A stretch of DNA of 64,000 bases from Weeksellaceae bacterium (GTDB lineage Bacteria; Bacteroidota; Bacteroidia; Flavobacteriales; Weeksellaceae), in contig JAIBEX010000022.1 in the NCBI GenBank assembly GCA_019459455.1, positions 1-64,000 of the forward strand, in the 5' to 3' direction. The notes beneath the pieces were generated by a model. That model did no database searches. It worked only from the letters and a program-made list of their open reading frames with translations, and was not told the DNA's origin. The translations under genes and the position numbers were made by a program. This document shows, in pieces, positions 10,506 to 18,350 of this stretch. Numbering within the stretch: the first letter of the stretch is position 1; each line of letters begins with the position of its first letter.

Positions 10506-11825
10506 TTAAAATGAATACATTACCCTTACCATGGCGCGTAGATTTCCAACGTCTTTGATGTTGTTTTCCGCGGTGGCTTCGGGACTCAGGTCTCCCCATT
10601 TGGCAGCAGTATATTCCACTTCCGGTGAGATGCTGAATTTGTTCTGTTTGAAATCCACCCGGGCGGCAGCACGCCAAACGTTATCCAGGATCCTGGTTCC
10701 GGAAACACCTCGCATGTACAGATTTTTGTACCCGGAATCAACACCGGAATTCCTGGTATAGCCAAAGAAAACTCCCGGCGCTATTTTCGGATGCGCGCTG
10801 GCAACATCGACCCAAAAAGCGGAAGTTTTTGTAGGTTTATAGGATTCTATCCCATTTGGATTCTCGTAACCTGCAAAACCACCGATCATCACCAGATGGT
10901 GGAGGTTCCCGCCCGTAATGCCGTATAGTTTTGCGATTATTTTCTCGTTGGCATATTTAAAATAACCAAAGAACATTTCAGAATTCACTTTTTCGTCAGA
11001 TGCCAAACCTCCGGACTCAATGACGGGTTTAAGCGACTGATATTCGGCACCGACACCTGCAAATACAGACTTGCCTTTGTATTGAAGCTGTCCGTGGAAG
11101 GTTGGGATGGATGAATTGAATGTAGCACTGTTTGCCGAAGCACCCGCGGCATTGGCAGTTTGGAATTCGCGGTCTTTGTAAGCTACGAGCGTGAAGGTGA
11201 ACTTAGGAGTGATTTTCTGACTGACTTTAACCTGTCCTGCCCATCCAAACGGATTGAAAAGGATTCCCGTGTTGAAATTGGCGACACCCGGAAAGACTTC
11301 GGGAACGAAAGTCGGATACCAAGTCTGACCGAATGTCACCGCCGTTTTCGGCCATGTTAAGGTAGCGGTGGCGTGGCGCAGGCGAAGCAGGCCAATGCTT
11401 CCCGATCCGGCTGAACTTTTGTTGAGTTCTGTATTTCCGAAGAAATCACCTTCCAGGTTTCCGGTTGCTTTGGCGCCCCAAACATCCGGTCCGCGGAATC
11501 TTATTCCCACCCTGGAGGTAATCGCGAGAAAATTACTGGCCCCGGTATCGTTAATGTCCTGTCCGTTGGCATCCAGTTTTTCGTCGAGTGGATACAGGTT
11601 AAGGTTGTACTCCCTGGTATAAGCCGACTGGCGGCTGTCGAAACTGTATTCCGTTCTCACCCAGCCGTAAAGGGACGCATCCCATTCTTTGGGTTTGTTT
11701 CTTTCCGTTTCCAGAGCCTCAATCCTTTTCAAAAGGTCTGCATTGGAAATTGTATCCTGGGCGTTTAACTGAGTGTTGAAGAGTAATGCAGGAAGCATTC
11801 CTAACAAAACGGTGAATTTCTTCAT
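10506..11825 (-). CDS. outer-membrane beta-barrel porin (DcaP-like)
   Basis: 439 residues with a cleavable signal peptide ending about NAQ (residue 22). A short predicted coiled coil (LLKRIEALETERNK) follows, then a long alternating beta-barrel that ends in a C-terminal phenylalanine (VRVMYSF), the usual outer-membrane insertion signal. The N-terminal coiled coil followed by a barrel resembles the DcaP family of trimeric porins for dicarboxylates. It would let small acids cross the outer membrane ahead of the MFS carrier encoded next. It is the first structural gene of the cluster. Its upstream region carries a 12-bp inverted repeat at 11834-11880. Confidence 0.82.
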   Translation of the reverse strand: MKKFTVLLGMLPALLFNTQLNAQDTISNADLLKRIEALETERNKPKEWDASLYGWVRTEYSFDSRQSAYTREYNLNLYPLDEKLDANGQDINDTGASNFLAITSRVGIRFRGPDVWGAKATGNLEGDFFGNTELNKSSAGSGSIGLLRLRHATATLTWPKTAVTFGQTWYPTFVPEVFPGVANFNTGILFNPFGWAGQVKVSQKITPKFTFTLVAYKDREFQTANAAGASANSATFNSSIPTFHGQLQYKGKSVFAGVGAEYQSLKPVIESGGLASDEKVNSEMFFGYFKYANEKIIAKLYGITGGNLHHLVMIGGFAGYENPNGIESYKPTKTSAFWVDVASAHPKIAPGVFFGYTRNSGVDSGYKNLYMRGVSGTRILDNVWRAAARVDFKQNKFSISPEVEYTAAKWGDLSPEATAENNIKDVGNLRAMVRVMYSF

Positions 11826-11833
11826 AGTTTGCT

Positions 11834-11880
11834 AATTTTTAGTTTGTTTCTTTGACAGAACGAAAGTGAAACTAAAAATT
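11834..11880. promoter_or_regulatory. 12-bp inverted repeat upstream of the porin gene
   Basis: AATTTTTAGTTT at 11834-11845 is perfectly repeated in inverse at 11869-11880, 23 bases apart, starting eight bases before the porin start. It could be the operator for the neighbouring HTH regulator or a leader hairpin that covers the start region. Confidence 0.5.
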
Positions 11881-11983
11881 TATTTGAAGAAATTTAATAT
11901 ATATTTATGCAAACAGTATAGTTAAATGGAGGGGGATGTCGTCCGGTATTTCCCGCTGCATTCCCGGAGATTGTATCACATCT

Positions 11984-12400
11984 TCACTTCTTAAACCGCT
12001 CCCATTTGATCATCATGTACTTATCGCCGAATTCGGTGATGATGAGGCCAGAACCTTTGATATTTTCTTCTTGCTGCATAAACTCAATAAGCTCAGCCTG
12101 TTTGAATACCCTGTAAGTCGTGTGAAACTCAGTGTGAGGTGGTCTTTTGATGTTATATTTCCTGACCCATGAACTGATGGTGACGTGGGAAACGCCGAGA
12201 ATCCTTTCAATTTCGCGGTAGGAAAGTCCTTCAAGATATAGTTGAAGTGCTTTGGTAACGTAATAGTCATCAATCTGTTTGCCCAGCTTCTTCACTGTAA
12301 AATAATAGTTGCAGTCCCGGCACAGGAACCGTTGTCTTTCTTTTACAATACCGCTTTTTACTACATTATGCTGCTGGCACTTGGGACACGTATTGGGCAT
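11984..12400 (-). CDS. zinc-ribbon/HTH DNA-binding protein related to IS1 InsA, probable regulator
   Basis: 138 residues. The N-terminus is a CxxC...CxxC zinc ribbon (Cys5, Cys8, Cys27, Cys30) followed by a helix-turn-helix (about 58-81, SYREIERILGVSHVTISSW). This architecture is that of IS1 InsA. However, there is no InsB reading frame, no flanking terminal repeats and an additional 55-residue C-terminal domain, so it looks like a domesticated regulator rather than a transposon gene. It lies directly upstream of the porin in the same direction and has its own good promoter at 12417-12448. It is a candidate for the missing transcriptional output of the sensor kinase/receiver pair, which is inference. 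Confidence 0.78.
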   Translation of the reverse strand: MPNTCPKCQQHNVVKSGIVKERQRFLCRDCNYYFTVKKLGKQIDDYYVTKALQLYLEGLSYREIERILGVSHVTISSWVRKYNIKRPPHTEFHTTYRVFKQAELIEFMQQEENIKGSGLIITEFGDKYMMIKWERFKK

Positions 12401-12416
12401 AACTATACTTTTTTAG

Positions 12417-12448
12417 CAAATATATATTAAATTAGCATTAATATCAAA
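12417..12448 (-). promoter_or_regulatory. Bacteroidota-type promoter of the HTH regulator
   Basis: Read on the minus strand: TTTG at 12445-12448, a 20-base spacer, then TATATTTG at 12417-12424, about 17 bases before the ATG. This matches the TTTG/TAnnTTTG consensus used by the Bacteroidota primary sigma factor. Confidence 0.65.
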
Positions 12449-12495
12449 TTTTGATTCGATTTGAACGTTTCGAAATGCCTTTCTGGAAATTCACT

Positions 12496-12526
12496 TTTGG
12501 TTTTCGGATAAAATTTCTATCTTTGC
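12496..12526 (+). promoter_or_regulatory. promoter of the pyrB leader
   Basis: TTTG at 12496-12499, a 19-base spacer and TATCTTTG at 12519-12526 match the consensus exactly. Transcription should begin around 12531, at or one base before the ATG of the leader ORF, which would make the message nearly leaderless. Confidence 0.78.
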
Positions 12527-12531
12527 AGCTA

Positions 12532-12606
12532 ATGAAAAGAACATTTCCATTAGACCATTTACAGGTTGGCAGCGATGCCGGTAACAACAATATTTATTTT
12601 ATTTAA
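12532..12606 (+). CDS. 24-residue leader peptide of pyrB attenuator
   Basis: A short ORF (begins [10 protein letters not shown], ends NNNIYFI) starting essentially at the predicted transcript start. Its last codons lie in a T-rich tract (12589-12606), and its stop codon overlaps the first bases of a terminator stem. This arrangement parallels the E. coli pyrBI leader. There, RNA polymerase pauses in U-rich RNA when UTP is low, the translating ribosome then catches up, covers the terminator stem and allows pyrB expression. With ample UTP, polymerase runs ahead and terminates. Translation of the ORF is inferred from architecture only. A fortuitous ORF is possible. Confidence 0.6.
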
Positions 12607-12634
12607 CGAAGTCATTTTGGCTTCGTTTTTTTTT
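12605..12634 (+). terminator. pyrB: intrinsic terminator/attenuator in the pyrB leader
   Basis: AACGAAG (12605-12611) pairs with CTTCGTT (12621-12627) around a nine-base loop, and the descending arm runs into nine T (12626-12634). It lies between the promoter and the pyrB ATG, so read-through must be regulated for pyrB to be expressed. Confidence 0.85.
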
Positions 12635-12653
12635 GACCTTAAACAAGAGAACT

Positions 12654-13544
12654 ATGCTTACAACCACCGACTTAACCGTAGAAAAGATCAATTCTTTATT
12701 GAAAACTGCTGAGGAATTTTCGAAAGGGAAGATGCTGAAAGCTAAGGAGGACATTTATGTATCGAACCTCTTTTTTGAAGACAGTACGAGGACTAAAACC
12801 AGTTTCGATATTGCAGAGCGCAGGCTGGGACTCAATGTAGTGCCGTTTGATGTAACCTCCAGTTCGGTGAACAAAGGCGAATCATTGTATGATACGGTTA
12901 AAACCCTTGAAAGTCTGGGCGTGAACCTGCTGGTGATCCGTCATAAACAGGACAAATACTATGATGATTTAAAGAATATCGATATCCCGGTAATCAATGG
13001 AGGCGACGGCCGTGGCCATCATCCTTCGCAGACCCTTTTAGACTTGATGACCATTCAGCAGGAATTCGGAAAGTTCAAAGGACTGAAAGTTGGGATTGTA
13101 GGCGATGTAAAGCACAGCAGGGTCGCAAATTCCAACGCGGAAGCATTGCGTAAACTAGGTGCGAAAGTATTTTTCTCCGGACCCGAAAAGTGGTTTGATG
13201 AAGGTACGATTATCAACGGGACCTACCAGTCCATCGACGATCTCGTTCGAGAAGTGGATGTGCTGATGCTGTTGAGGATACAGCACGAAAGACATGGTGA
13301 AAAGATGAAAATCTCCCTGGAGTCCTACCATAAAAAATTCGGACTCACCAAAGAACGCGAAAAGGTGATGAAGAAAGATGCAATTATCATGCATCCCGCA
13401 CCTATTAACCGCGGAGTGGAGATCGACAGTGAACTGGTGGAGTGTGACCGTTCCCGGATCTTCAAACAGATGGAGAATGGGGTTTTTGCCAGAATGGCTA
13501 TTTTGATAGACGCCCTGGAAGGGAAAGGGTTTAAGTTTAAATAG
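12654..13544 (+). CDS. pyrB: aspartate carbamoyltransferase, catalytic chain
   Basis: 296 residues from the ATG at 12654. A TTG further upstream lies inside the terminator T-run and is rejected. It condenses carbamoyl phosphate with aspartate in the second step of pyrimidine synthesis. The carbamoyl-phosphate loop is present as [17 protein letters not shown], followed by [14 protein letters not shown] and the aspartate-domain [11 protein letters not shown]. No pyrI regulatory subunit is nearby, so allosteric control through PyrI is not expected and the leader attenuator may carry the regulation. It heads a pyrB-carA-carB group that also makes the carbamoyl phosphate it uses. The gap to carA (132 bases) holds a decayed repeat element. 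Confidence 0.96.
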
Positions 13545-13547
13545 GAT

Positions 13548-13661
13548 CAAGAATCATGAGCCAAGAATCAGAAAGAATAAAGAGTGAGGAGTCGCAGGAT
13601 AAATTTTACCGGCGGTGGACTTTGGACAGGAAGGTCTTACATGTTGGTTCTGGGCTCTGAA
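13548..13661. repeat. degenerate pair of inverted AAGAAYC heptad arrays without a gene
   Basis: On the left (13548-13577) heptads such as AAGAATC, ATGAGCC and AAGAATC are visible. On the right (about 13636-13661) the inverse complement appears as GGTTCTGGGCTCTGAAATCT. The pair matches the arrays flanking the four-helix-bundle gene between carA and carB, but here only about 60 bases separate them. It looks like an internally deleted, non-autonomous copy, and in RNA the GAGCC/GGCTC parts can pair. Confidence 0.6.
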
Positions 13662-13676
13662 ATCTAAAATAAAAGA

Positions 13677-14783
13677 ATGAAAAAGAAATTAATATTAGAA
13701 TCCGGAGAGGTTTTTCACGGTGAAGGTTTCGGGGCCAACCTGGAAACCGACGGTGAGGTGGTCTTTAATACCGGAATGACCGGTTATCAGGAACTTATTT
13801 CAGATCCGTCTTACTGCGGGCAGATTGTCTGTATGACCTATCCGCTTATCGGTAATTACGGGATTAACCGCGATGATTATGAGAGCATTGAGCCCGCAAT
13901 CAAGGGTTTGATTGTGAAGGAACTTTGCGATTATCCCTCTAATTTCCGTAACCAGCTTACGCTGGATGAGTTTTTCCAAAAAAAGAAGCTGTCCGGTATC
14001 TCAGGAATTGATACAAGAAGGCTGACCCGTGTGCTGCGCAGCAAAGGCGTGGTAAAAGGTAAAATTGTGGATGAACATGCTGATGTGGATATCGTTATCG
14101 AAGGTTTAAAGCATACCGATTTCCCTATCAACCAAGTAGAACAGGTCTCCACCAAAACGGCTTATGCAAGCCCCGGCAGGGGATTGAAGGTGGTGCTGGT
14201 AGATTTCGGTTCAAAATTGGGAATTTTACGTGAACTTACCCAGAGAGACTGCGACGTTACCGTAGTTTCACAGGACGTTACGTCGGAAGAGATCCTGCTT
14301 ATGGATCCGGACGGGATCATGCTTTCCAACGGTCCCGGTGATCCGGAAGACGTAAAAGGAGCTTCAGAACTCATCAACGGTCTGCTTGGTAAGGTGCCGA
14401 TTTTCGGTATTTGTCTGGGTCATCAGCTCATTGGTCTGGCGTGCGGTGCGAAAACCTTCAAACTGAAGTTCGGGCACCGTGGCGGAAACCATCCGGTGCT
14501 TGATTTAGAGAAAAATAAGGTGGCGATAACTTCCCAGAATCACGGCTACGCTGTGGATCAGGAATCGCTGAAAGATACCGATCTGGAAGAAACCCACATC
14601 GCGCTCAACGACAGAACCAATGAAGGCCTAAGACATAAGATCCATCCGTGTTTCTCCGTGCAGTACCACCCCGAAGCAAGTCCCGGCCCGGAAGATGCCA
14701 ATTATCTGTTTGATGAGTTTATTGAGTTGATGGAGAATTTTAAGAACCAAGAACCAAGAACCAAGAATCAAGAATATGCATAA
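13677..14783 (+). CDS. carA: carbamoyl-phosphate synthase, small (glutamine-hydrolysing) subunit
   Basis: 368 residues. The N-terminal CPSase_sm domain (KKLILESGEVFHGEGFG) is followed by a class I glutamine amidotransferase. Its nucleophile is the Cys in GICLGHQLIGLACG and its partner His/Glu lie in HPEASPGP. It releases ammonia from glutamine and channels it to CarB. The true domain ends about residue 355 (DEFIELMENF). The last 13 residues (from KNQEPRT) are encoded by heptad repeats that flank the next gene, so the C-terminus seems to have been lengthened by an insertion. The stop overlaps the start of that gene. Together with pyrB and carB it forms the carbamoyl phosphate/pyrimidine block. 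Confidence 0.96.
   Translation: MKKKLILESGEVFHGEGFGANLETDGEVVFNTGMTGYQELISDPSYCGQIVCMTYPLIGNYGINRDDYESIEPAIKGLIVKELCDYPSNFRNQLTLDEFFQKKKLSGISGIDTRRLTRVLRSKGVVKGKIVDEHADVDIVIEGLKHTDFPINQVEQVSTKTAYASPGRGLKVVLVDFGSKLGILRELTQRDCDVTVVSQDVTSEEILLMDPDGIMLSNGPGDPEDVKGASELINGLLGKVPIFGICLGHQLIGLACGAKTFKLKFGHRGGNHPVLDLEKNKVAITSQNHGYAVDQESLKDTDLEETHIALNDRTNEGLRHKIHPCFSVQYHPEASPGPEDANYLFDEFIELMENFKNQEPRTKNQEYA
14742..14777. repeat. left heptad array (AAGAAYC)n of the four-helix-bundle cassette
   Basis: Five consecutive 7-bp units: AAGAACC three times, AAGAATC and AAGAATA. Being 7 bp, three units make 21 bases, so the array reads through carA as a 7-residue protein period (KNQEPRT, KNQE...). The inverse partner array lies just before carB. 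Confidence 0.85.
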
Positions 14784-15167: not shown

Positions 15168-18100
15168 ATGAAAAGAACAGACATAAAAACAATCCTCGTC
15201 ATCGGTTCTGGACCCATCATCATCGGGCAGGCGGCAGAATTCGATTACGCAGGAACCCAGGCTTGCCTGGCATTGAGGGAAGAAGGATATAAGGTGATTC
15301 TGATCAATTCCAATCCCGCCACCATCATGACCGATGTGGAGATTGCCGACAAGGTCTATATTGAACCCATTTCACTTCCATTTGTGAGTCACATCATCAG
15401 AAAGGAAAGGCCGGATGCGCTTTTGCCTACCTTAGGCGGACAGACGGGCCTTAATATGGCGGTAGAACTTGAAAAATCAGGTATTCTGGAAGAATGTAAA
15501 GTTGAGGTCCTGGGAACGAAACTTTCGGCCATCAATCAGGCAGAGGACCGGGATCTGTTCCGGGAACTCATGCGGGAACTGAACGAACCCGTTCCCGAAT
15601 CCGATATTGTAAATACCGTTCAGGGAGCTTTGGAATTTGCGCAGAACATCGGTTTTCCGGTGATTGTGCGTCCTGCATTTACAATGGGAGGGACCGGTGG
15701 CGGAATCGCCAGCAATGAAGAGGAACTGAAGGAAATCACAAGTTTTGGACTGAAATATTCGCCGGTAACCCAGTGTCTGATTGAAAAATCTATCGCCGGG
15801 TTCAAGGAAATTGAGTACGAGGTGATGCGCGACAAGAACGACAACGCGATCGTGGTCTGTAACATGGAAAACATCGATCCTGTGGGCGTGCATACCGGTG
15901 ATTCCATCGTAGTTGCGCCATCGCAGACTTTATCGGACCGCGAATACCAGATGCTTAGAAATTCTTCCCTGAAGATTATCCGCGCGCTGGGAATCGAAGG
16001 AGGCTGTAACGTACAGCTAGCTTTGGACCCGCATTCTTTTGATTATTTTATAATTGAAGTGAACCCGCGGGTTTCCCGTTCGTCGGCTTTGGCGAGTAAG
16101 GCTACCGGTTACCCGATTGCCAAGATTGCGGCCAAGATTGCGGTGGGTTTAACACTGGATGAAATCATGAACCCAGTAACAGGTAAGACTTACGCCTGCT
16201 TCGAACCGGCTTTGGACTATGTGGTAACGAAATTCCCAAGATTTCCGTTTGATAAATTTGAGACCGCAGACCGCCGTCTTTCCACCCAGATGAAAGCAAC
16301 GGGGGAAGTGATGGCAATAGGCAGAAACTTCGAGGAATCCCTTCAAAAAGCCATCCGTTCGCTGGAAACTGGCTTAAGACATATCGGTTTGAAATCGGCT
16401 CAGGCTGCAGCTCTTACTGACGAAGAAATCGAAAGAAGAATCCGGGTTTGCGATGACGAGAGGCTTTTTATCATCGGAGATGCCCTTAGAAGAGGCTATG
16501 ACTGGGAAAAAATTGTGGAATGGAGCAAAATAGACAAATTCTTCATCTACAAAATAAAGAAACTCATTGACTTTGAAAAAGTCATTGCAGACCATAAATT
16601 TGATACAGAAATCTTACTGAAAGCGAAAAAACTCGGTTTTTCAGATTTGAGCATCGCTCATTTGTGGAATTCGACCCAAAAGGAAATCTTTGAATTCAGA
16701 AAAGATAATTCGGTGATGCCTGTTTACAAAATGGTTGACACCTGCGCTGCTGAATTTGAAAGTGAAACGCCTTATTTCTACGGAACGTATGAGGAAGAAA
16801 ACGAAAGTATCCCTTCAAACCGCGAGAAGGTCATCGTGCTTGGATCAGGTCCGATCAGGATCGGTCAGGGTGTGGAGTTCGATTACGCGACGGTGCATTC
16901 GGTCTGGGCTATTAAGGAAATGGGGTATGAGGCGATCATCATCAACAATAATCCCGAAACAGTTTCCACCGATTTCTCGATCTCAGATAAACTCTATTTC
17001 GAACCTTTAACGGAAGAAGACGTTATGAACATCATCGAGCTGGAGAAACCCAAAGGGGTGGTGGTGCAGTTTGGCGGACAGACCGCAATCAATCTTGCCG
17101 ATAAACTTGCAGCGCACGGTGTACAGATTTTAGGAACTTCACTCGAAGACCTGGACCGTGCAGAAAACCGGAATAAATTCGAGGCTGCACTGCAGGAACT
17201 GGGTATTCCGCAGCCGCTTGGTAAGACCTGTTTCACCAAGGAGGAAGCTTTGGTCATTGCCAATGAAATCGGGTTCCCTGTACTGGTACGTCCGAGTTAC
17301 GTGTTAGGAGGAAGAGCGATGGAGATTGTGTATGATGAGAAGGAACTCGATTATTATATGACGAACGCGGTGAAGGAAAATTCGGAACATCCGATCCTTA
17401 TTGACCGCTATCTAACAGGGAAGGAAGTGGAGGTTGATGCCATTTCCGACGGTGAAACGGTGGTCATTCCGGGCATCATGGAACATATTGAAAGGGCAGG
17501 AGTGCACTCCGGAGATTCCATCGCGGTTTATCCACCCCAAAATATTGACCAGCGGCAGATTGATATGCTGGTTGATTATACGGTTAGGTTGGCGAAAGGC
17601 CTTAATGTCATTGGCTTGATGAACATCCAGTATGTGCTTTATCAGGGGGAAGTTTTCGTTATCGAGGTAAATCCGAGGTCAAGCCGGACTGTTCCGTTTC
17701 TTTCCAAAATCACAGAGATTCCGATGGCAAATCTGGCCACGAAAGTGATCCTTGGTCAAAAACTGAAGGACCTGGGCTATAAAAACGGACTGGCTCCCGT
17801 GAAGGAAGGAATTTTTGTGAAAGTGCCCGTATTTTCTTTCTCGAAACTGACAAAAGTGGATATCTCCCTCGGACCTGAAATGAAATCCACGGGAGAGGTA
17901 ATGGGGAAAGACACGACGTTGGAAAAAGCACTCTATAAAGGACTGATCGGTTCCGGCAGAAAGATGCCGCTGCACGGTGCCATTCTCTTCACGGTTGCCG
18001 ACAAGCACAAGGAGGAGGCCTGCGAACTGGCCAGGCGCTTCCAGGAAATCGGATTTAAGATCTGGGCGACAGAGGGCACCGCGAACTATTTTGAGGAGCA

Positions 18101-18350
18101 CGGCGTGCGTACAAAAATCGGTTACAAAATAGAAGAGAATCCGGAAATCAACCTTATCGACCTGATCCAGACCGGAAAGGTGCAGTACATTGTAAACACA
18201 ATGACCAAAGGAAAGCAATCGGAACGCGACGGTTTCCAGATCCGACGGACTTCTGTGGAGAACGGTGTCCCGTGTCTTACTTCCATGGATACAGTGGAAG
18301 CGATACTGAAGGTGATTGAAAGCATGAGCTTCAAGATGGAGAAGATGTAA
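15168..18350 (+). CDS. carB: carbamoyl-phosphate synthase, large subunit
   Basis: 1060 residues from the ATG at 15168 ([10 protein letters not shown]). An earlier TTG would read the repeat array as protein and is rejected. It makes carbamoyl phosphate from bicarbonate, ammonia delivered by CarA and two ATP. The duplicated ATP-grasp halves are evident: [17 protein letters not shown] begins the first and [16 protein letters not shown] the second, each with a glycine-rich ATP loop ([17 protein letters not shown]). The C-terminal MGS-like domain, which binds allosteric effectors such as UMP or ornithine in relatives, spans about 940-1060. It is separated from carA by the repeat-flanked four-helix-bundle gene. 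A strong terminator follows. Confidence 0.97.

Follow-up and report, generated by a model that had tools for sequence, protein, structure and literature searches.

The leader upstream of pyrB in a Weeksellaceae bacterium is composed of a promoter, a short open reading frame, a T-rich tract and an intrinsic terminator, and with a probability of roughly 78% we consider it to be a UTP-sensing, ribosome-coupled attenuator of the pyrBI/pyrE kind, which would be near-leaderless and equipped with a pause hairpin. The coupling part is well supported by the sequences of the family, and UTP is suggested as the signal by the nature of the controlled gene, by the T-rich tract and by the E. coli precedent. 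Polymerase would start about 2 nt upstream of the leader ATG, so a ribosome could load at the front of the emerging transcript almost immediately; a small hairpin would form, and polymerase entering the T-rich tract would be held in a pause. At low UTP, polymerase would be slow in the T-rich tract while the ribosome melts the hairpin, trails close behind and, at its stop codon, covers the left arm of the terminator, so that the terminator could not fold and pyrB-carA-carB would be transcribed, presumably as one transcript. At high UTP, polymerase would escape early, the terminator would form behind it and transcription would stop.

The pyrB leader of the window

The window, i.e., the whole stretch of 64,000 nucleotides that was analysed, contains the following features around pyrB:

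12496..12525 (+), promoter of the Bacteroidota primary-sigma type, with TTTG at 12496-12499 and TATCTTTG at 12518-12525, read in the sequence
12530 (+/- 2 nt) (+), probable transcription start, from the -12 to -5 rule for TAnnTTTG
12532..12606 (+), leader ORF of 24 codons plus TAA, with ATG at 12532-12534 and stop at 12604-12606
12529..12553 (+), 5' hairpin CTAATG...CATTAG around the start codon, a predicted fold
12568..12579 (+), pause-type hairpin GGCA-GCGA-TGCC, from paired changes and a positional test
12589..12604 (+), T-rich tract, the interval from hairpin to terminator, from its T fraction
12605..12634 (+), intrinsic terminator, with stem 12605-12627 and T run 12626-12634
12654..13544 (+), pyrB, aspartate carbamoyltransferase catalytic chain (NCBIfam models TIGR00670 and NF002032 over cut-off)
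13677..14783 (+), carA, carbamoyl phosphate synthase small subunit (NCBIfam model TIGR01368 over cut-off)
15168..18350 (+), carB, carbamoyl phosphate synthase large subunit (NCBIfam model TIGR01369 over cut-off)

Direct reading of the window bore out the initial annotation, in which a promoter, a 24-codon ORF with a T-rich end and a terminator had been placed before pyrB; the overlap of the stop codon with the left arm of the terminator, also claimed there, was found again and amounts to 2 nt. The terminator stem has 10 bp, of which 4 are G-C pairs, a point against the attenuator reading, and the leader as a whole folds more stably than its shuffles (z -2.35).

Two neighbouring genes were observed besides. 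A gene for a four-helix-bundle protein (TIGR02436, 14776-15135, forward strand) stands between the two car genes and shares 8 nt with the end of carA. A 138-aa IS1-transposase-like protein is encoded divergently from pyrB at 11984-12400 on the reverse strand; its zinc-binding N-terminal domain scored over cut-off and the whole IS1 model below cut-off, and its relatives were found near pyrB in 33 of 123 loci, with some genomes counted twice. This neighbour may be a domesticated DNA-binding protein with a possible role in pyr control.

The window promoter type agrees with the promoter consensus reported for Bacteroidota (PMC7366714), and in F. psychrophilum the TAnnTTTG box is reported at -12 to -5 (PMC9723704). 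When this box position is applied to the window, the start would fall close to 12530, with the ATG at about +3, and the leader would be near-leaderless. A possibly leaderless ORF at +1/+2 had been proposed at first; our estimate shifts it slightly downstream, and +1/+2 still falls within the error of the start position. Leaderless mRNAs are described as rare in F. psychrophilum (5.5%; PMC9723704), about 3.7% of the 5' UTRs of B. thetaiotaomicron are given as shorter than 10 nt (PMC7366714), and the mRNAs of the phylum are reported to be without Shine-Dalgarno sequences (PMC6847099).

Conservation of the leader frame in Weeksellaceae

The PyrB search covered 197 genomes of the same GTDB family (Weeksellaceae) and gave a match at E<=0.001 in 166 of them, some matches being very weak (e.g. 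3e-4) and probably paralogues. Upstream DNA was taken from 110 places in 109 genomes of this search (30 loci and 80 regions), from 80 named loci and from 13 of 14 further genomes (G057 was left out because its PyrB is a fragment); the family genomes without an upstream reading belong mostly to genera g8 and g20. The named relatives include Chryseobacterium, Riemerella, Soonwooa and Kaistella, the last of which belongs to Weeksellaceae. Many named loci are the same genomes as those of the family search, and distinct leaders were therefore used for the counts.

One architecture was found in 194 rows with 127 distinct leaders of Weeksellaceae, nine genomes of genus g16 apart, and its shared order is TAnnTTTG, 5-7 nt, ATG, frame, T-rich tract, terminator and pyrB. 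Throughout these rows the terminator lies 66-84 nt after the leader ATG; the script located it in 189 of 190 rows, and those of L070 and L238-L241 were assigned by hand. The leader frame has 18-43 codons (median 23), two of the longest frames having no stop before the PyrB match. The box is present in 194/194 rows and was demanded by the script, which also required an ATG 3-11 nt after it, so the presence of this ATG is not an independent count; where there were several ATG candidates, the one closest to 75 nt from the stem was taken, and such an ATG is present in 11% of random windows from the same upstream DNA. A TTG stands 15-26 nt ahead of the -7 box in only 80 of the 127 distinct leaders, and a -33 element was for this reason dropped as a general feature.

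Up to 15 nt before the stem, where the ORF test ends, the leader frame is free of stops in 127 of 127 distinct leaders, versus 2 and 32 for the +1 and +2 frames, respectively. After clustering of 190 rows at 70% identity, all 26 clusters were open in frame, compared with 8.0 expected from dinucleotide shuffles (P 1.4e-14), and at 60% identity six of six clusters were open, compared with 1.8 expected (P 0.0005). Of the 127 leaders, 111 have the stop codon at -5 to +3 nt from the stem, 14 have it in or past the terminator, and two stop early (L055 at -13 nt, L058 at -8 nt), which counts against the attenuator reading. The initial annotation had suggested the pyrB upstream regions of Weeksellaceae as the place to look for a conserved frame and stop position, and both were found there. 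It had also named frameshifts in close relatives as evidence that would speak against the leader; the indel-bearing relatives L017, L028 and L029 keep the frame open to or through the terminator, and the frames of L017 and L029 continue into or through it with no early closure.

The peptide sequence has little in common between genera, and pN/pS was 0.79, 2.0 and 0.71 in three groups; since open frames are kept while the peptides diverge, it is the open frame up to the terminator that is conserved, and hardly the peptide. These values bear on another reading, namely a small-protein gene or a small RNA with its own terminator, which stands by chance before a separately promoted pyrB. Promoter, ORF and terminator do make up a complete small transcription unit, but the peptide varies as described, and TAnnTTTG occurs between the terminator and the start of the PyrB match in only 2 of 127 distinct leaders, so that we regard this reading as very improbable. 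The same count bears on a transcript start downstream of the terminator, which the initial annotation had named as adverse to the leader. The rows were gathered via pyrB and their linkage to pyrB is given by the sampling, the exception being a pattern search of the window's own genome, in which TTTG-N5/6-ATG-N72-100-T7 gave 21 matches (overlapping ones counted) versus 8 for the reversed control. Among these matches TANN precedes TTTG at pyrB only, leaders of other lengths lying outside the pattern.

The picture of a uniform leader holds for the 127 distinct leaders and fails for genus g16, which has no short leader and a longer TTG-started frame instead. Of its 9 genomes (L242-L250; PyrB 52-55% identical), 8 carry a frame of 64-89 codons that crosses the terminator and has its end between -21 and +23 nt relative to the pyrB start. 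These frames are the longest of three, with TTG start codons assigned by us, and for each of the eight genomes 2-7 of 500 shuffles gave a frame as long; the genomes are related, so the eight frames are not independent events. L246 has no clear leader, and 85 of 500 shuffles reach its frame.

Hairpins, terminator control and the candidate signal

A second hairpin, which was absent from the initial annotation, is variable in sequence and constant in place, about 10 nt before the T-rich tract, and its position argues that it is part of the device. A best hairpin above the score threshold, with its end 16-26 nt ahead of the terminator, was obtained for 21 of the 26 clusters, compared with 2.7 expected from shuffles in which the T-rich tail was kept and only the upstream part was shuffled (P 6e-18); in the other clusters the hairpin is weak or placed elsewhere, e.g. 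in L064. The T frequency after the hairpin is 0.12-0.23 at +1 to +7 and 0.46-0.85 at +9 to +19, and the last 16 nt before the stem have a mean T fraction of 0.60 versus 0.28 elsewhere, the fraction being higher in 26/26 clusters; that the DNA is AT-rich in any case weakens this T content as a pointer to UTP.

Covariation was read from an alignment of 34 of the 127 distinct leaders that were judged alignable, in which the first columns of L056 and L067 are out of register. Both partners of a pair had changed in 3 of 4 pairs of the pause-type hairpin and in 2 of 5 inner pairs of the 5' hairpin. For the whole structure, four of five measures lay above all 500 shuffles, a control that does not remove relatedness, and the fifth, which counts further pair types, was not above the shuffles (319/500). 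The region of the 5' hairpin had z<-1 in only 8 of 26 clusters (Stouffer -4.1), and this hairpin was therefore taken as lineage-specific. Once formed around the start codon in some genera, it should slow initiation, for which simple coupling does not account. Nor does simple coupling explain the constraint on the Kaistella-like leaders, in which the codons CCA, TTA and GAC are invariant at the wobble base (27/27).

These invariant wobble positions and the paired changes in both hairpins could be expected of a riboswitch or protein-bound element, in which a ligand or an RNA-binding protein reads one or both leader hairpins and controls the terminator, the ORF being incidental; the left-arm complementarity of L067 (z -4.7), an outlier far above chance, points the same way. 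We consider such an element unlikely. The hairpin sequence varies by genus while its place is constant, and over the 26 clusters the leader complements the left arm no better than expected by chance (mean z -0.04, Stouffer -0.19). An Rfam scan (cmscan, 11000-14000, up to E 5) returned two unrelated families, both below the gathering score, and the 127 open frames, versus 2 in frame +1, would be left unexplained. An RNA antiterminator was rejected on the cluster result, with L067 as the one outlier.

Without an antiterminator, the ribosome is the obvious candidate for preventing termination. In E. coli a terminator few bp past a stop codon is described as almost completely repressed by the ribosome, and for amino-acid attenuators more than 20 bp from leader ORF to terminator are given in the same source (PMC4824070). 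The stop positions found here would be of the direct-blocking kind, unlike those of amino-acid attenuators.

The coupling evidence is identical for an attenuator that senses not UTP but an amino acid (asparagine, arginine), general translation speed or ppGpp. Three consecutive Asn codons do occur in 17 of 127 leaders, that of the window included, and carAB supplies arginine too. On the other hand, the Asn runs are found in only 3 of 26 clusters and are therefore not the shared signal, 101 of 127 leaders lack any run of three identical residues, and what the leaders have in common from hairpin to terminator is a high T content. The distance from stop to stem conflicts with the amino-acid design as it is described in PMC4824070. 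A signal other than UTP thus appears quite improbable to us. Amino-acid attenuation in particular is not favoured, with the stop at the stem in 111/127 leaders and no antiterminator; the Asn runs keep it alive.

Comparison with known systems of pyr control

PyrR controls pyr operons. None of the 197 Weeksellaceae genomes gave a match to its model (NF003549) at E<=1e-12, the window's own genome giving two weak matches only, both under cut-off, and no PyrR-binding RNA element was found by cmscan before pyrB in 11000-14000. Control by PyrR was rejected on these two results. The gene pyrI, encoding the ATCase regulatory chain, was likewise found in 0 of 197 family genomes. The initial annotation had noted for the window the lack of a PyrR-type anti-antiterminator and of pyrI; the absence of PyrR and of pyrI now holds at the genome level, and its argument for a pyrBI-like coupling logic instead of a PyrR-RNA system is strengthened by the missing PyrR together with the frame that runs to the terminator.

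In the order-wide sample PyrR was found in 128 of 196 genomes, 118 of these over the curated cut-off, and the PyrR-less genomes are all Weeksellaceae among the 20 listed, 48 more existing. Directly before pyrB and on the same strand, pyrR was found in 70 of 70 genomes of other families with pairable listed coordinates. The Weeksellaceae attenuator apparently takes over the part that a regulator protein plays in neighbouring families; it is similar to the RNA-binding attenuation of PyrR in acting on a pyr operon, and different in that PyrR is missing from 197/197 Weeksellaceae genomes. Among the matches listed for the order- and class-wide samples, no PyrB from another family exceeds 48% identity to that of the window, and the leader was accordingly traced within the family.

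For F. psychrophilum, strong indications are described that amino-acid operons are preceded by leader-peptide attenuators (PMC9723704), and coupling-based control is therefore not new to Flavobacteriales. Those attenuators concern amino-acid operons, whereas the gene concerned here is pyrB, which has no occurrence in the main text of that paper. No report of ribosome-coupled pyrB attenuation in Bacteroidota was found in the literature searched, most subscription journals lying outside it. If UTP-sensing attenuation is true of this leader, a purely kinetic switch has taken over from an RNA-binding regulator in one bacterial family, and the leader would serve as a natural reporter of ribosome-polymerase co-movement in a phylum without Shine-Dalgarno sequences.

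The pause hairpins of the his and trp leaders likewise lie about 10 nt upstream of where polymerase would pause, a 10-nt spacer being reported for the pause hairpin (PMC9291695); those leaders differ from the present one, for which neither alternative antiterminator structures nor a shared regulatory codon run were found. We tentatively propose, at slightly less than even odds, that a regulator-free, near-leaderless attenuator replaced PyrR, in which the start-codon hairpin limits loading to the pioneer ribosome, a his/trp-like hairpin synchronises the two machines and the T-rich stretch is the UTP meter. The gating of the pioneer ribosome by the start-codon hairpin is speculation on our part. 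If this hybrid reading is true, it would define a hybrid attenuator class and would be genetic evidence that transcription and translation are tightly coupled in Bacteroidota.

Ribosome-coupled sensing of UTP is a known mechanism in E. coli. The pyrLBI leader is similar to that of the window in its promoter, leader ORF, T-rich tract and terminator before pyrB, and coupling to translation is reported to be needed in pyrBI to prevent termination (PMC5021804). The likeness to pyrBI that had been claimed at first stands for this coupling layout and does not extend to the frame itself, since pyrL has 44 codons and crosses the terminator, whereas the window ORF has 24 codons, starts near the RNA 5' end and ends at the base of the stem. 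E. coli also has pyrI, which is missing from 197/197 Weeksellaceae genomes. The leaders of g16, on the other hand, have the same layout as pyrL in the MG1655 record, through the terminator to pyrB. RNA structure is reported as unlikely to be needed for the pyrL pause, though stem mutations shortened it (PMC9291695), and the positioned hairpin would therefore distinguish the device of the window from pyrL.

Upstream of pyrE in the window's genome, no comparable leader was seen in the stretch read by eye. In E. coli rph-pyrE, intact rph has its stop codon a short distance upstream of the attenuator, and a ribosome that reaches this codon covers the stem. The annotated, truncated rph of the MG1655 record ends 34 nt before the stem, as counted by eye, and the intact geometry may differ. 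The Weeksellaceae leader is similar to this system in the proposed covering of the stem by a ribosome at the stop codon, and different from it in that the frame of rph-pyrE is a gene and its target is pyrE.
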